This document shows positions 8,545 through 35,476 of a DNA stretch of 36,676 nucleotides, piece by piece (position 1 is the first letter of the stretch; each line of letters opens with the position of its first letter). The notes beneath the pieces were generated by a model. The model saw only the letters and a list, made by a program, of their open reading frames with translations. It did no database searches and had not been told where the DNA came from. The stretch is from NCBI RefSeq assembly GCF_902801725.1, contig NZ_CADCJB010000027.1:28765-65440 (forward strand), written 5' to 3'. The translations under genes were made by a program, and so were the position numbers. This stretch comes from an uncultured Methanobrevibacter sp. (GTDB lineage Archaea > Methanobacteriota > Methanobacteria > Methanobacteriales > Methanobacteriaceae).

Positions 8545-10003
8545 AGAATCTGTTGGGATTGTTGAAACTAAATATCTCAATATTGAAGAGCCAATTGAAT
8601 TGGATAGTGGTAAATCTCTTAAAGAAGTCACTGTTGCTTATGAAACTTATGGTGTACTCAATAAAGAAAAATCAAATGCTATTTTAATCTGTCATGCATT
8701 GACCGGTGATGCCCATGCTGCAGGTTGGCATGAAGGCGATAAAAAACCAGGATGGTGGGAAATAGTTATTGGTCCGGGCAAAGCATTGGATACAGAAAAA
8801 TACTTTATAATTTGTTCTAATGTTTTGGGCGGTTGTAAAGGAACAACAGGTCCTAGTTCTATCAATCCTGATACTGGAGTCGAATATGGTATTAATTTTC
8901 CAGTAATTACAATAAAGGATATGGTTCATGTTCAAAAGAAATTGGTTGATTCAATGGGAATTGACCAGTTATATGCAGTTATAGGCGGATCCATGGGGGG
9001 AATGCAAGTTCTTCAATGGATGGTGTCTTATCCTCAAATGATGAAAAAGGCGGTTCCGATGGCTACTGCAGCAATGTCCTCACCTCAGCAAATTGCATTT
9101 AATGCTGTAGGTCGCCAGTCAATCTTTTCCGATCCTGATTGGAATAACGGAAACTATTATGAAGTTGGAAAGATTCCAAAGAATGGCCTTTCAATAGCCC
9201 GTATGATTGCCCACATTACTTATTTGAGTGATGAATCAATGTATATCAAATTTGGTCGTGACCTGCAGGACAAGGATGAAATAAGCTATGATTTCACGAC
9301 AGATTTTCAGGTTGAAAGCTATTTGAAACATCAGGGTGAATCTTTTGTAAAGAGATTTGATGCCAACAGTTATCTGTATATTACAAAGGCTGTTGACCTA
9401 TTTGACCTGTCTGAGAATAACTCATTGATTGACGGTTTCAAGGATATTGAAGCTAAAATTGAAGTTATATCAGTGGATTCCGATTGGTTATATCCGACTG
9501 AACAGAGTACTGAGATTGTAACTGCACTCAATGCCAATGATGTGGAAGTATCATTTTCGGAAATAAAATCCAATTATGGGCATGATGCATTTTTACTTGA
9601 AAAGGGACAGCTGAACTTTATCCTGTCAAAATTTCTGGCAAACAATGTTGTTACAGATTTGATGAAAGAGGTAATTGTTACTATTAAAGCCAATGCTGAT
9701 GTTGAGGAAGCAGCTAAATTGATGCTTGATAAGCAGGTTACTCATATTCCTGTTGTAACTGATGACTATAAGTTGATAGGTATTGTTACAAGCTGGGATT
9801 TATCCAAATCAATTGCCACTAACACTAATCGTCTGAAAGATATTATGACCACTACAGTTAAATACTGTTATGCTGATGATTCTATTGAAAATGTCGCTCG
9901 GATGATGAGTCAATATGATATATCATCACTTCCTGTCGTTGATGAGGATATGAAAGTATTGGGAATTGTTACAACTGATCAAATTAGTCATTTATTGGGT
10001 TAA
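8537..10003 (+). CDS. metX: Homoserine O-acetyltransferase fused to two CBS domains
   Basis: Residues 1-~370 form the alpha/beta-hydrolase MetX domain that transfers acetyl from acetyl-CoA to homoserine for homocysteine and methionine synthesis. The nucleophile is Ser152 in GGSMGGMQ; Asp316 (DSDWLYP) and His349 (YGHDAF) complete the triad. Residues ~374-488 are two CBS motifs ([16 protein letters not shown] and [17 protein letters not shown]), which usually bind adenosyl ligands. This fusion is known in methanogens and suggests allosteric control, perhaps by SAM or a nucleotide; that ligand is inferred. The start overlaps rnc by eight bases. Homoserine, its substrate, would come from the dehydrogenase encoded at 18301-19320. 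Confidence 0.93.
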
Positions 10004-30824: not shown

Positions 30825-31868
30825 ATGTATAATGACGATCAAGAAAATTATTATCAAAGGATGTTGTCTAATTCAATATCTTCAATGAATCCATCTGAAG
30901 AAGCTAAGAAAAGAGCTAGAAAGAAATCAGCAGGCTATTATGAAGATTTAAAAGAACAATTATTGTTAGAATATGAAGGCAAGGAATTGACTGATATTAA
31001 AAATTCCAAGGTTATATCTACTGATTTCGGCGACACTCTAAAGATAACTTCGAAAGAAAAGGTTGATTTTAATATTATTGATAATAATTTTAAAAGCCAA
31101 ATGAACCATAATTTAAAATTGCTTCCAAAGATAGGTATTAAAACGGAAGAAAATCTTAAAAATAAAGGATATCCTACGATTGAATCTCTTAGGAGTCATG
31201 ATAAATACGGTGATGTCGCATCTGATTTTTTGGATGCTGTCGGGGAAATGTCATTTCATGAGATAATGGATTTGCTTGATGCCAACAAATACTCTAAAAA
31301 GTGCAGAAATAACCTGCTGAAATGCATAAGTCTTACTGACCGTGAAAACTTTAAGTTTATGGATATAGAAACTAAAGGACTTTCTAACGTTCCTGTAATA
31401 TTAATTGGTGTTGCTGAAATTAAAGGCAATAACATAATTACTTCACAATATTTCCTAAGGGATTATGCTGAAGAATCTGTGATATTGGATGCATACCTGT
31501 CTCATTTGGATGAAGATTCCGTTCACGTAACTTTCAATGGAAAAAGTTTTGATGTACCATTTATTAATAATAGGTGCATATATAATAGAATTGATGCTGA
31601 CTTGGATTTGCCTCACATTGATTTGATGCACTTTGCAAAAAATCTGTGGAGTGATGAATTGCCAAATTGTAAACTTCAAACAATTGAACGGGAGTTTTTT
31701 GGTATTGAAAGGGAAGATGATGTTCCCGGACAATATATTCCAGGATATTACGATACATATTTATCTAAAAACAATATTGGTCCTATTGTGCCCATAATTG
31801 AGCATAACAGGCAGGATATTGTTTCACTTGCCGCTTTTTTGGAGAAAATGTATGGGGATGTAAATTAA
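30825..31868 (+). CDS. RNase H-like (YprB-type, DEDD) exonuclease domain protein
   Basis: The C-terminal part (residues about 175-345) is an RNase H-fold nuclease domain of the YprB group. Its acidic residues are visible in FMDIETKGL (Asp180, Glu182), in FNGKSFDVPF, and in HNRQDIVSLAAF near the end, consistent with the DEDD metal site. LPHIDLMHFAKNLW and the GIEREDDVPG segment match the family. The N-terminal half is different: a charged helical start, then a helix-hairpin-helix-like stretch (LLPKIGIKTEENLKNKGYPTIESL) that could bind DNA. There is no ribosome-binding site; the TATA box suggests near-leaderless translation. The stop is one base before the next gene, a long repeat protein. Confidence 0.85.
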   Translation: MYNDDQENYYQRMLSNSISSMNPSEEAKKRARKKSAGYYEDLKEQLLLEYEGKELTDIKNSKVISTDFGDTLKITSKEKVDFNIIDNNFKSQMNHNLKLLPKIGIKTEENLKNKGYPTIESLRSHDKYGDVASDFLDAVGEMSFHEIMDLLDANKYSKKCRNNLLKCISLTDRENFKFMDIETKGLSNVPVILIGVAEIKGNNIITSQYFLRDYAEESVILDAYLSHLDEDSVHVTFNGKSFDVPFINNRCIYNRIDADLDLPHIDLMHFAKNLWSDELPNCKLQTIEREFFGIEREDDVPGQYIPGYYDTYLSKNNIGPIVPIIEHNRQDIVSLAAFLEKMYGDVN

Positions 31869-31869
31869 A

Positions 31870-33381
31870 ATGGGACTTTTTGATAGATTTAAAAAGAATG
31901 ACAAAAAGGAAAAAAAGGAACGCAAATCCGTTCCGAATGATGTTGAAATTGATGAAGATCAATTGCTGTTGAAAAAGATAGCCACAACAAGCAAGGATAG
32001 AAATGAACGGGCTGTTGCTGCAGACCAAATTACAGATCAATACGTTGCACTGGATATTGCTAAAAATGTAAAGGATAGGGCCATTAGATTGATTGCAGCC
32101 AATAAAATCAAAGATGAAAATCTACTTTGGGATGCTGCTGAAAACTCAAAATTCTTTGATGTTAGAAGTTTTGCCTATGAACGATTGGGTGAAAATAACA
32201 AATCAATTGCCGAAATTGTAATAAATACTAAAAAAGATCCTCATGTCGATGAAATATTTAAGAAAATCACGGATGAGGAAACCCTTAAATGGATTGCAAT
32301 TGAAGCAGAGGACAAAAGATATAGAAATGAAGCTGTAGATAGGATAGAATCCAAGGAAGTATTGGAAGATTTGGTATTTAAGGCCAGTGACAATTCCATT
32401 AAAATGACAGCAATCAACAAGGAAAACTTTGATGATGAGGATATTCTCCAAAAAATTGCTATTGGCGAGAAAGATGAAGGCGTAAAGACTGCAGCAATCA
32501 AAAAAATTGATGATGAACAAAAATTAGCTGAAATTGCAAAGAGCGAAGAAAATGCAAAGATACGGTCACTTATTTTTGAAAGGATTGATGATGCCGACAT
32601 CCTAAAAAGCATAGTTCTGAACTCTGAAAAATCTGATGTTCGTCTGGATTTGGTTCCAAAGTTGGATGATGAAAATCTTTTAAAGGAAATTGCTTTAAAT
32701 GACTCTGATAAAATTGTTAGAAGTGAAGCCGTTAAAAAGATTGATGATGAAGATGCATTATTGGAAATCATCAAAAATGATGACGACAGGTTTGTTCGCC
32801 AGATTGCCGTCAATAACATTAAAAATCCCCAAATATTAATTAACATTGCTTTGAATGATGATGACCAATTCGTAAGAAATCATGCAATTAAAAATCCTAA
32901 TTTGGTTGATGAAAAGGATTATTTGGAAATTGTTATTAATTCCACTCATGAGGATGTGGCTTTTGAAGCAATGAAACACATCAGCGATGAAAAATCATTC
33001 ATAAAAATTTTAAATGAAGCCAAATTGGAAAATATTAGAAAGGGTACTCTGGACAATATTGATGATTTGGAAACATTGATTAAAATAGTTCTGGCAAACA
33101 AAGATGAGGAATTTTCCTTGAAGGCTTTAAATAAGATTGATGTTGAAGCTTGTTTGATTAAAATATATGAGCAGGGAATTTCTGAAAGTATTTCGGTTAG
33201 GGCAGTTTCCAAAGTAAGAAATCAGAAGTTTTTAACTGGTGTTGTTAAAAATGAACCTCAATGGAGAGTTCGTGAAGCTGCAGTTAAACATATTGTAAGT
33301 AAGAAAGTCTTAAAAGAAGTTTCAATCAATGATGAAAATGAATATGTAAGAAACGTCGCTAAAAAAAGGTTGAATTTATAA
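31870..33381 (+). CDS. 26-residue helical-repeat (LRV/HEAT-like) solenoid protein
   Basis: After a very basic start (FDRFKKNDKKEKKERK-type, residues 3-20) nearly the whole 503-residue protein is built of about 18 repeats of 26 residues. Their consensus is D-D-E-x-L-L-x-x-I-A-x(4)-D-x-x-V-R-x-x-A-x-x-x-I. The register is exact through most copies, for example DDENLLKEIALNDSDKIVR and DDEDALLEIIKNDDDRFVR. This resembles leucine-rich-variant (LRV) and short HEAT repeats, which form curved helical scaffolds for binding proteins or nucleic acids. The surface is rich in Asp, Glu and Lys. It starts one base after the nuclease stop, so the pair is coupled. The end overlaps EFR1 by six bases on the opposite strand. 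Confidence 0.85.
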   Translation: MGLFDRFKKNDKKEKKERKSVPNDVEIDEDQLLLKKIATTSKDRNERAVAADQITDQYVALDIAKNVKDRAIRLIAANKIKDENLLWDAAENSKFFDVRSFAYERLGENNKSIAEIVINTKKDPHVDEIFKKITDEETLKWIAIEAEDKRYRNEAVDRIESKEVLEDLVFKASDNSIKMTAINKENFDDEDILQKIAIGEKDEGVKTAAIKKIDDEQKLAEIAKSEENAKIRSLIFERIDDADILKSIVLNSEKSDVRLDLVPKLDDENLLKEIALNDSDKIVRSEAVKKIDDEDALLEIIKNDDDRFVRQIAVNNIKNPQILINIALNDDDQFVRNHAIKNPNLVDEKDYLEIVINSTHEDVAFEAMKHISDEKSFIKILNEAKLENIRKGTLDNIDDLETLIKIVLANKDEEFSLKALNKIDVEACLIKIYEQGISESISVRAVSKVRNQKFLTGVVKNEPQWRVREAAVKHIVSKKVLKEVSINDENEYVRNVAKKRLNL

Positions 33382-34134
33382 AAAGATTTCAACCTCTTTT
33401 CTTTCGCTGTTTGCTTCTTCAAATACTGGTTTTTTAGATTCAAATGCTTCTCCTGTAAATGAACGTGCATTTTCAGGGCAAATATTGATGCATGCAGTAC
33501 ATCTGCTACACATGTTCAGGTCTGTGTTTACAGGATCATCTTCAGGAATTGCATTTTCTGGACAAATTGAAATGCAATCATAGCAGAAGATGCAATGAGT
33601 TTCATCGCAGGCTATTTCGAATGGTAGCTGTTTGTATTCGACGTATGGTATGTTTCCTGGAATTTTACTTTCAAGGCTTTTGCCGGATTTGATTTTTTCC
33701 TGACATTTTTTTGAAAATTCATTAATTTTTTTGATGTCATTTTCATCAGGCCTTCCTACAGCAACACTGTCAAATATGGAATGGTGACTTACTGTTGTTG
33801 CCGCTGCAATCACATCAAACTTGTTTTCTCTCAGCAAATCCACTAATTCAAGTAGTGCATCACTCACGTGTGCATTTCCATAGTTTGCAACAGCGATTGC
33901 TTTGGTATTATTTCCTTTCAATTTAGCTAATCGATTGCGGGCACTTTTAGGTATTCTTCCGGCAAAAACAGGCATTCCTACAATTGCAATGTCGTCTTTT
34001 TTGAAATCCTTCTCCAAATCAAAGTGCAACAGGTCATAGGCTTCGCTGGTTTCATTAAAATTGCTGGCGATTTGTTCTATGACTCTTTTTGTGGTTTGGG
34101 AAGGACTGAAATAGATTTTTATAATTTTTGACAT
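33376..34134 (-). CDS. EFR1-type ferredoxin-flavodoxin protein
   Basis: Residues 1-~150 are a flavodoxin domain (KIYFSPSQTTKRVIEQIA phosphate loop, VGMPVFAGRIPKSA, AVANYGNAHVSDALLELVDLL). Residues ~180-225 hold two [4Fe-4S] ferredoxin motifs, CIFCYDCISICP and CSRCTACINICP. This matches the EFR1 family of anaerobes, in which flavin and iron-sulfur clusters exchange electrons; the physiological partners are not known. GGTGAAATA precedes the ATG. It is convergent and slightly overlapping with the solenoid gene, and divergent from the FrhB-like gene, another flavin/iron-sulfur protein, across a 246-base AT-rich spacer. Confidence 0.9.
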   Translation of the reverse strand: MSKIIKIYFSPSQTTKRVIEQIASNFNETSEAYDLLHFDLEKDFKKDDIAIVGMPVFAGRIPKSARNRLAKLKGNNTKAIAVANYGNAHVSDALLELVDLLRENKFDVIAAATTVSHHSIFDSVAVGRPDENDIKKINEFSKKCQEKIKSGKSLESKIPGNIPYVEYKQLPFEIACDETHCIFCYDCISICPENAIPEDDPVNTDLNMCSRCTACINICPENARSFTGEAFESKKPVFEEANSERKEVEIFL

Positions 34135-34312: not shown

Positions 34313-34324
34313 TTTAAATATATA
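34313..34324 (+). promoter_or_regulatory. TATA box of the FrhB-like gene
   Basis: TTTAAATATATA, preceded by AAAAAC, lies 57-68 bases before the start codon. The predicted transcription start is near 34345, at the foot of a small hairpin (GGAAG-ATAC-CTTCC, 34346-34359). This is followed by GAGGTG (34369-34374), six bases before GTG 34381. Confidence 0.5.
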
Positions 34325-34380
34325 GAATGTATAAACTATTATGTAGGAAGATACCTTCCGACTGAAGTGAGGTGTAAAAA

Positions 34381-35454
34381 GTGAGTGAAATCAGAACAGC
34401 CATGGTTGGAACTCCATGCCAAATACTGGCTGCAACAAAAATTAACAAATATGAAAAACAGACTGGCGGTTCGCCGATAGATGTAAAAATTGGTTTATTT
34501 TGTATGGAAAACTTTTCTTATTCCTATCTTGAAAGATATCTCAAGCAGCAGGATATAGAGCTGTATGAAGTCAGAGAATTCAGAATAGACAAAGGTAAAT
34601 TCATTGCGAATTTAATTGACGGAAGGGTATTCAAAATACCTATTGCCGAAACCGAACCGTTTACCCGTAAAAATTGTCACATATGTACTGATTATACCTC
34701 TGATACTTCTGACATATCTGTAGGTTCAGTGGGTTCTCCAAACGGATACTCAACAGTTATTGTCAGATCAAAAAAAGGAAGGCAAATTATCGAAGACTGT
34801 ATTGATAAAGGGTATATTGCTATTGATGAAATCACATCTGAAGGATTAAATCTTTTGGAAAGGATTGCAAACCAGAAGATTTCCAAAAACACTAAAAATT
34901 ATAAAAAGAGGGAAGCCATTGCAAGGCCTGTTTTGTCTAAAAGAAAAGTAACTGAAGAGGAATTTGTAAGAGAATCATGTCTCTGCCAATTTGAAAATCT
35001 GCAAAATGATGTTATAAGCGTAGGGTCATGTGTTTTGTGTGGGGCCTGTGAATATGTCTGTCCAATTGACTCAATACAAATCAATCATAGAAAACCGGTT
35101 TCCAAAAAGGAATGTGAACCTGACTGCCATGCATGTTATTTTGCATGTCCTAGAACATTTGTTAGCGAAGAGATATATCCAAGCGATATAGATGAAAAAC
35201 CGCTTGGAAACTATCTTGATATCTATTGTGTAAAGGCAGATTCCATAATCGGTCAGGATGGTGGGGTAGTATCAGCTATTCTAGTATATCTGCTTGAAAA
35301 TGATGTAGTTGATGCAGTATCCATTGTCGGAGAAGATAAGGATGCACCTTGGAGACCACAATCAAAACTCACCTCTTCAGTTCAGGATGTTATTACTGCA
35401 GCCGGAACAAAGTACAGTACAACTCCGATAGGATTCAAAGCCCTAAACAAATAG
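34381..35454 (+). CDS. F420 hydrogenase/dehydrogenase beta subunit (FrhB/FpoF) homolog with circularly permuted domain order
   Basis: The 357-residue protein starts with the FrhB C-terminal-type domain (residues ~1-195): TAMVGTPCQILAATKI, KIGLFCMENFSYSYLE, and KNCHICTDYTSDTSDISVG with IVRSKKG. Two [4Fe-4S] motifs follow: CVLCGACEYVCP from residue ~217 and CEPDCHACYFACP. Finally comes the FrhB N-terminal-type region (GQDGGVVSAILVYLLENDVVDAV and ITAAGTKYSTTPI) at residues ~288-352. The usual FpoF order is ferredoxin, N, C; here it is C, ferredoxin, N. Such proteins carry FAD and iron-sulfur clusters and use coenzyme F420 as electron donor or acceptor. GAGGTG and a GTG start with a TATA box upstream support this as the true gene; a terminator overlaps the stop. 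Confidence 0.87.
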   Translation: MSEIRTAMVGTPCQILAATKINKYEKQTGGSPIDVKIGLFCMENFSYSYLERYLKQQDIELYEVREFRIDKGKFIANLIDGRVFKIPIAETEPFTRKNCHICTDYTSDTSDISVGSVGSPNGYSTVIVRSKKGRQIIEDCIDKGYIAIDEITSEGLNLLERIANQKISKNTKNYKKREAIARPVLSKRKVTEEEFVRESCLCQFENLQNDVISVGSCVLCGACEYVCPIDSIQINHRKPVSKKECEPDCHACYFACPRTFVSEEIYPSDIDEKPLGNYLDIYCVKADSIIGQDGGVVSAILVYLLENDVVDAVSIVGEDKDAPWRPQSKLTSSVQDVITAAGTKYSTTPIGFKALNK

Positions 35455-35476
35455 GGTTTTTATTTTTTCTTTTTTT
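35441..35476 (+). terminator. Terminator overlapping the FrhB-like stop codon
   Basis: CCCTA (35441-35445) and TAGGG (35452-35456) pair across a six-base loop, and the stop codon TAG is part of the stem. A T-rich tract follows to 35476. This supports the protein ending here rather than continuing into a lost second domain. Confidence 0.55.

Follow-up and report, generated by a model that had tools for sequence, protein, structure and literature searches.

The locus

The window analysed here is a stretch of 36,676 nucleotides from an uncultured Methanobrevibacter sp., and near its end lies a gene for an FrhB-family protein in which the C-terminal-type segment of FrhB (C) comes first, a ferredoxin part with two [4Fe-4S] motifs (Fd) second, and the N-terminal-type segment of FrhB (N) last. 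This C-Fd-N order, and the ties of the gene to the glutamate synthase protein GltB, are the subject of this account. The reading frame, its GTG start and the motifs quoted by a first-pass annotation of the sequence were confirmed, and the order which that annotation had read is borne out by the Pfam domains: FrhB_FdhB_C falls at residues 5–153 (E 1.3e-46) and FrhB_FdhB_N at residues 291–350 (E 1.9e-18), while the 4Fe-4S matches, at about residues 203–260, are weak, with Fer4 alone above its cut-off (21.3 vs 21.1 bits). The features of the gene, in window coordinates, are the following.

34381..35454, + strand: coding sequence of the permuted FrhB-family protein; 357 amino acids, GTG start, TAG stop
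34393..34932, + strand: FrhB C segment; Pfam FrhB_FdhB_C at residues 5–153, the rest, to about residue 184, aligning with the FrhB C-terminal helix (FrhB alignments and residue mapping)
34933..34995, + strand: new linker between C segment and ferredoxin part; about residues 185–205, unaligned in the rotated alignments
35011..35157, + strand: two [4Fe-4S] ferredoxin motifs; residues 211–259, with Cys217, 220, 223 and 227 and Cys245, 249, 252 and 256
35251..35430, + strand: FrhB_FdhB_N segment; residues 291–350, with QDGG (292–295) and Lys344-Tyr345 of the flavin adenine dinucleotide (FAD) site (Pfam and mapping)
34369..34374, + strand: ribosome-binding site GAGGTG, 6 bases upstream of the GTG; read from the DNA
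34313..34326, + strand: TATA-like element TTTAAATATATAGA, candidate promoter of the gene's own; read from the DNA
35437..35460, + strand: terminator-like hairpin overlapping the stop codon, with a T run and T-rich DNA after it; a consensus match only

The linker at about residues 185–205 is partly helical in the predicted structure model. The TATA box, the GAGGTG-GTG start and the terminator of the first-pass annotation are all readable in the DNA, but the TATA-like element is putative and the hairpin is weak evidence, two terminator-like sites having been found on both strands against 0.7 expected. Upstream is a divergent EFR1-like gene (33376–34134, minus strand; 64.6 bits vs a cut-off of 75) whose protein has two 4Fe-4S motifs, and downstream is an MFS gene, on the opposite strand and clipped by the window end. 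With both neighbours on the other strand, the permuted gene looks like a single-gene unit.

Cyclic permutation

Every rotation of the permuted protein was aligned locally to five non-permuted FrhB or Fsr-like proteins. Undoing the rotation raised the score from 259 to 383 against the genome's own FrhB, from 311 to 439 against a second FrhB, from 349 to 594 against an FrhG–FrhB fusion, and from 243 to 414 and 238 to 436 against two Fsr-like proteins, a gain of 41–83 per cent over the five targets, and the best cut points fell at residues 185–204 in all five. Shuffled queries (20 per target) scored at most 48, and rotation brought no gain to any of four non-permuted control pairs. The alignments thus confirm, at the level of sequence, that the C-Fd-N order is a true cyclic permutation, beyond chance, as had been proposed at first pass. 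In the rotated alignment to the FrhG–FrhB fusion the end of the window protein joins its own start across a two-residue gap, and this continuity places the new termini at the N–C junction, where the break had been noted. The canonical proteins tie the ferredoxin to N and N to C; in the permuted protein the ferredoxin is tied to both N and C, and the N–C tie is open. To our knowledge, a cyclic permutation that passes through an internal ferredoxin is uncommon in a flavoprotein.

An artefact, in which an Fd-N-C gene was cut and rejoined during assembly or two partial genes were annotated as one, might be suspected in a window drawn from an unfinished assembly of 83 contigs. Yet among the best 120 of 3346 homologues, which were those examined, both ends are present in 116, every one of them in the order C-Fd-N, and the other four are fragments. 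The identical order in single-contig genomes such as G001, G003 and G148 speaks against an assembly join at the gene ends, and none of the four neighbouring open reading frames scanned holds a second FrhB N-type domain. An artefact is therefore next to impossible, and both ends of the protein are real.

Spread of the permuted family

The permutation is old and family-wide. A search of 151 genomes of the phylum found the permuted gene in 127, with four broken or fragmentary only (G009, G019, G091, G140), and the deepest lineages among the 151 (G001, G003, G148) also carry it. No genome of the 151 was seen to hold two full-length permuted genes. A tree built on the N and C segments unites the permuted proteins on one side of a branch (85/96) and separates them from FrhB (95/92), Fsr and the FdhB-like rows, the last being split from them by a branch with support of 100/100; tree tests did not reject a union of the permuted group with FrhB (p 0.19) or with Fsr (p 0.20). 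Such a change usually comes about when an Fd-N-C unit is duplicated in tandem and its outer parts are then lost; no intermediate of that route was seen in this analysis. A permutation that pervades a whole methanogen class offers a ready case for how such genes arise, and for whether the FrhB N–C junction tolerates cutting.

The permutation is not new, having already been noted in print: the Figure 9 legend of a 2013 eLife paper states the C-Fd-N order for the F420-dependent glutamate synthase subunit of Methanothermobacter marburgensis (PMC3591093), although the letters 'permut' do not occur in the text of that paper. They are likewise absent from the available portions of PMC9012536 and PMC13381448, both of which mention an F420-dependent glutamate synthase, and an open-access literature search combining 'circular permut' with F420 terms found nothing. 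On the first-pass annotation's own terms, homologues of the same order would count against it if they were common and already described, and they are both.

Relation to glutamate synthase and to other F420 enzymes

The company that the gene keeps identifies the family. Genes for glutamine amidotransferase, GXGXG and GltB lie at most five genes away in 71 of 131 permuted-gene loci (some genomes being counted twice), and in 70 of the 131 GXGXG stands immediately before and GltB immediately after the permuted gene; for the 80 loci of named records the corresponding counts are 48 and 47. In early-branching lineages the permuted gene lies within the glutamate synthase operon. The best-documented relative is the Methanothermobacter subunit (ADL58239, MTBMA_c06440, MTH193), and MTH193/MTBMA_c06440 has been described as an F420-dependent glutamate synthase (PMC3087415, as far as its text is accessible). 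PMC3448663, in the portion at hand, names the enzyme FGltS(II) and treats the F420 subunit as a homologue of FdhB, divergent in sequence from Fsr-N, and its tree places the subunit with FrhB. Four genomes of the group G143–G150, taken as Methanothermobacter, encode proteins 44–46 per cent identical to the window protein, which has the C-Fd-N order of FGltS(II)-alpha. In Methanothermobacter-type genomes the gene is within the gltB operon, whereas in the window's clade it is unlinked. The window gene probably specifies the subunit of archaeal-type glutamate synthase that oxidises F420H2 (FGltS(II)-alpha by the nomenclature of 2012) and feeds the electrons to GltB.

The cofactor residues are consistent with this assignment. 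Alignment mapping finds the equivalents of FrhB Cys104, Cys134, Cys192, Cys195, Lys75-Tyr76 and Ser209-Val210 retained in the window protein as Cys13, Cys41, Cys99, Cys102, Lys344-Tyr345 and Ser116-Val117, so that the residues which FrhB uses for FAD, F420 and the proximal [4Fe-4S] cluster are kept as far as they could be mapped. From the FrhB roles given in the accessible part of PMC3591093, the four cysteines are the expected ligands of the flavin-proximal cluster and Ser116-Val117 the F420 loop. The FrhB loop 163-IGKGK reads IDKGK in the window protein. The other eight permuted rows retain the Cys, Lys-Tyr and Ser, with Val replaced by Ile in two, and the twelve cluster cysteines, including the eight of the ferredoxin part, are invariant in 33 aligned sequences (the query and a selection of the 120 homologues examined). 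The N and C segments are predicted, from the model and the sequence, to fold together as in FrhB.

FrhB itself shares its two Pfam domains and cofactor residues with the window protein and gives the best score for the C domain, but its order is N-C and it has no ferredoxin of its own, this residing in FrhG. The window gene is not beside frhG, its protein lacks the N-C order, and its NCBIfam scores are 226.6 (cut-off 269) and 192.2 (cut-off 331.5); elsewhere in the genome, a frhG tail of ferredoxin type is followed by a separate frhB. FpoF/FqoF and the N-terminal half of Fsr are like the window protein in combining a ferredoxin with an F420H2-oxidase module in one chain, but they do so in the order Fd-N-C, and the NCBIfam FpoF score is 159 against a cut-off of 475. 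FdhB joins an FrhB-type core to two [4Fe-4S] motifs, as the window protein does, but in the order N-C-Fd (PMC3448663, same portion); a separate FdhB-like gene is found at locus L003. A variant of FpoF or FrhB with a hydrogenase role is ruled out by the domain order and the separate frhB. The FpoF-like identity suggested at first pass accordingly gave way, since the C part scores best with FrhB and the family is that of the glutamate synthase F420 subunit, and the name hydrogenase beta subunit, carried by 10 of the 120 homologues, is a misleading annotation.

One further FrhB-type arrangement was seen at locus L160 (G142:C35, around 8928–9482), a single 540-residue open frame that resembles an FrhG–FrhB fusion in the natural Fd-N-C order and is the only FrhB-family match of G142 besides its permuted gene.

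Departure from the operon

In the window's own genome the operon of glutamine amidotransferase, GXGXG and GltB genes is on a different contig from the permuted gene, and just 12 bases separate GXGXG and GltB where relatives hold the permuted gene. The permuted gene and GltB lie apart or on separate contigs in 35 genomes; in some of them (e.g. G059, G078) this is apparently the operon-borne type interrupted by a contig break. In all 28 operons fetched from the 35, GXGXG and GltB are adjacent with no permuted gene between; as the operons were selected for having the permuted gene at another place, its absence reflects the selection in part, and the adjacency is what they add.

In the window's genus, the EFR1-like gene stands on one side of the displaced gene and an M42 peptidase gene on the other. 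Relatives with the operon-borne type or none were searched for the EFR1-like gene (15 genomes; G075 has a gap at this point), and in all nine that are comparable at the site the EFR1-like and M42 genes are adjacent with nothing between. The remaining six comprise four without a close EFR1 match (G043, G046, G075, G093), one at a contig edge (G061), and one whose best match is a paralogue elsewhere (G044; L217). The open-access searches, which were not aimed at gene displacement, found no account of this one.

Co-inheritance with GltB

The less familiar part of the history is that the gene left the operon yet comes and goes with GltB. If matches with E of at most 1e-110 are counted as GltB (the best E-values in G019 and G027 being 7.8e-118 and 6.5e-123), the 151 genomes divide into 123 with both genes, 20 with neither, four with the permuted gene only (G025, G071, G086, G136) and four with GltB only (G011, G035, G074, G075). 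Contig breaks account for G074 and G075 and the other six are unexplained; G011 alone among the eight is at least 90 per cent complete. Weaker GltB-like matches (1e-91 to 1e-101) belong to another paralogue of 458–486 residues, present with or without the permuted gene in all seven genomes checked, G000 included.

A tree of CTP synthase from 61 genomes, comprising 60 from the window's genus with the outgroup G014 (G049, G059, G067, G073, G078, G084 and G101 had no usable CTP synthase gene), requires 10 changes in the displaced gene, seven of them forced by starred branches, and most of its earliest branches carry the displaced state. Of the 61, 14 have both the displaced gene and native GltB, 45 have neither, and two have one of them alone: G071, and G075, whose contig stops just before the displaced-gene site. 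G074 was scored here as having no native GltB and was later found to have the operon-borne type (98 per cent to L035). Across independent pairs on starred branches, GltB changes in the same way in five or six of seven and never in the opposite way.

Over 42 genomes, the tree of the permuted protein and that of GltB resolve into the same three groups, every group forming one side of a branch: the unlinked group (100/100 for the permuted protein and 100/99 for GltB, as ordered here and below), the operon-borne type of Methanobrevibacter and Methanosphaera records (100/100 in both), and the early linked lineages (99/96 and 78/82). We read the pattern as a single ancestral relocation, after which both genes were repeatedly lost or replaced, and from the relationship of the replacement copies to those of Methanosphaera we infer that they arrived by transfer. 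Most of the genomes were assigned by comparing them with loci of named records. The window copy is probably a displaced, still-paired glutamate synthase subunit. That the displaced subunit and its GltB partner have repeatedly been lost or replaced together gives genetic support, independent of operon linkage, for a still unproven F420-dependent glutamate synthase.

Several observations weigh against this interpretation. The accessible text of PMC3087415 regards proof by purification as still due. The window gene is unlinked to gltB, while in early-branching relatives it is inside the operon; linkage is here taken to be typical of the FGltS(II)-alpha family but no requirement, given that the unlinked genes group together beside linked ones. 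A sign test on the independent pairs is weak (median p 0.03). The 99 per cent complete genome G011 has the unlinked GltB operon (L282), and no permuted gene was found in that genome; G071 (80 per cent complete) has the permuted gene and no full GltB. Within the three groups the permuted-protein and GltB trees differ in places (G142, G107, G015). The IGKGK loop, thought to contact F420 in FrhB, is altered in other permuted proteins (e.g. IEGGA, IEGSN), as far as the alignment places it, and QDGG has become QDGS in G044. Finally, the fold comparison of the model aligned the C half only, and the joint N and C fold therefore rests on the predicted template modelling score and the sequence.

Three side observations touch on GltB and its partners. 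Many Methanobrevibacter records (L128–L131 and many of L035–L083) have a second type of glutamate synthase operon, often with glutamine synthetase upstream; its proteins group with the Methanosphaera copies. Within the genus this second type occupies the place of the native operon, a pattern suggestive of transfer and replacement. The window's genome also has two additional GltB-like paralogues (about 465 residues), at G000:C71:1177-2142 and G000:C2:59587-60540. In G019 the permuted gene (G019:C59:1922-2974) is apparently broken by many stops, and this genome's strongest GltB match likewise falls below the usual level.

Proposed electron path and alternative roles

By analogy with the FrhB family, F420H2 would give a hydride to the FAD of the permuted subunit, from which electrons may pass to the proximal cluster, the two ferredoxin clusters, the ferredoxin part of GltB and the flavin mononucleotide of GltB, where 2-oxoglutarate and glutamine-derived ammonia would yield glutamate. 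As the gene lies outside the operon and is apparently its own unit, the subunit would join GltB in trans in this genome.

The same arrangement invites other readings. A promoter-like element of its own, a single-gene unit and an EFR1-like neighbour (33376–34134, minus strand) are what might be expected of a protein freed as a stand-alone F420H2:ferredoxin (or flavodoxin) oxidoreductase, perhaps acting with that neighbour, and GltB, which has ferredoxin motifs of its own, could then be fed directly by ferredoxin. However, the EFR1-like gene adjoins M42 in nine of nine comparable relatives without the permuted gene, so that the two are not tied, and the proposed link to this neighbour was rejected on that ground; nor does any of the 151 genomes keep a second full-length permuted gene, and, G071 apart, every loss or replacement of native GltB in the genus tree coincides with absence of the displaced gene. 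A freed oxidoreductase is thus unlikely. It is very unlikely that the displaced subunit has ceased to be dedicated to glutamate synthase and is a detachable F420H2 module that would serve GltB and other ferredoxin-accepting enzymes in trans, made separable by the permutation in that both ends of the flavin module are tied to the ferredoxin and the new termini lie at the N–C junction. Decay of the displaced gene into a dying relic since its linkage was lost might seem to be foreshadowed by the broken match in G019, but in all 24 unlinked genomes aligned the reading frame stays open for over 300 residues and the protein groups as its GltB does, and this, with the invariant cluster cysteines, makes a relic highly improbable.

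Other observations near the locus

Beside the EFR1-like gene, at 30825–33381 of the window, stand an RNase H-like gene and then a HEAT-repeat gene, an arrangement shared by 11 syntenic loci. In G061, G094 and G097 another place in the genome gives a second EFR1-like match, of 50–52 per cent identity, and G044 has no close match other than one of this sort.
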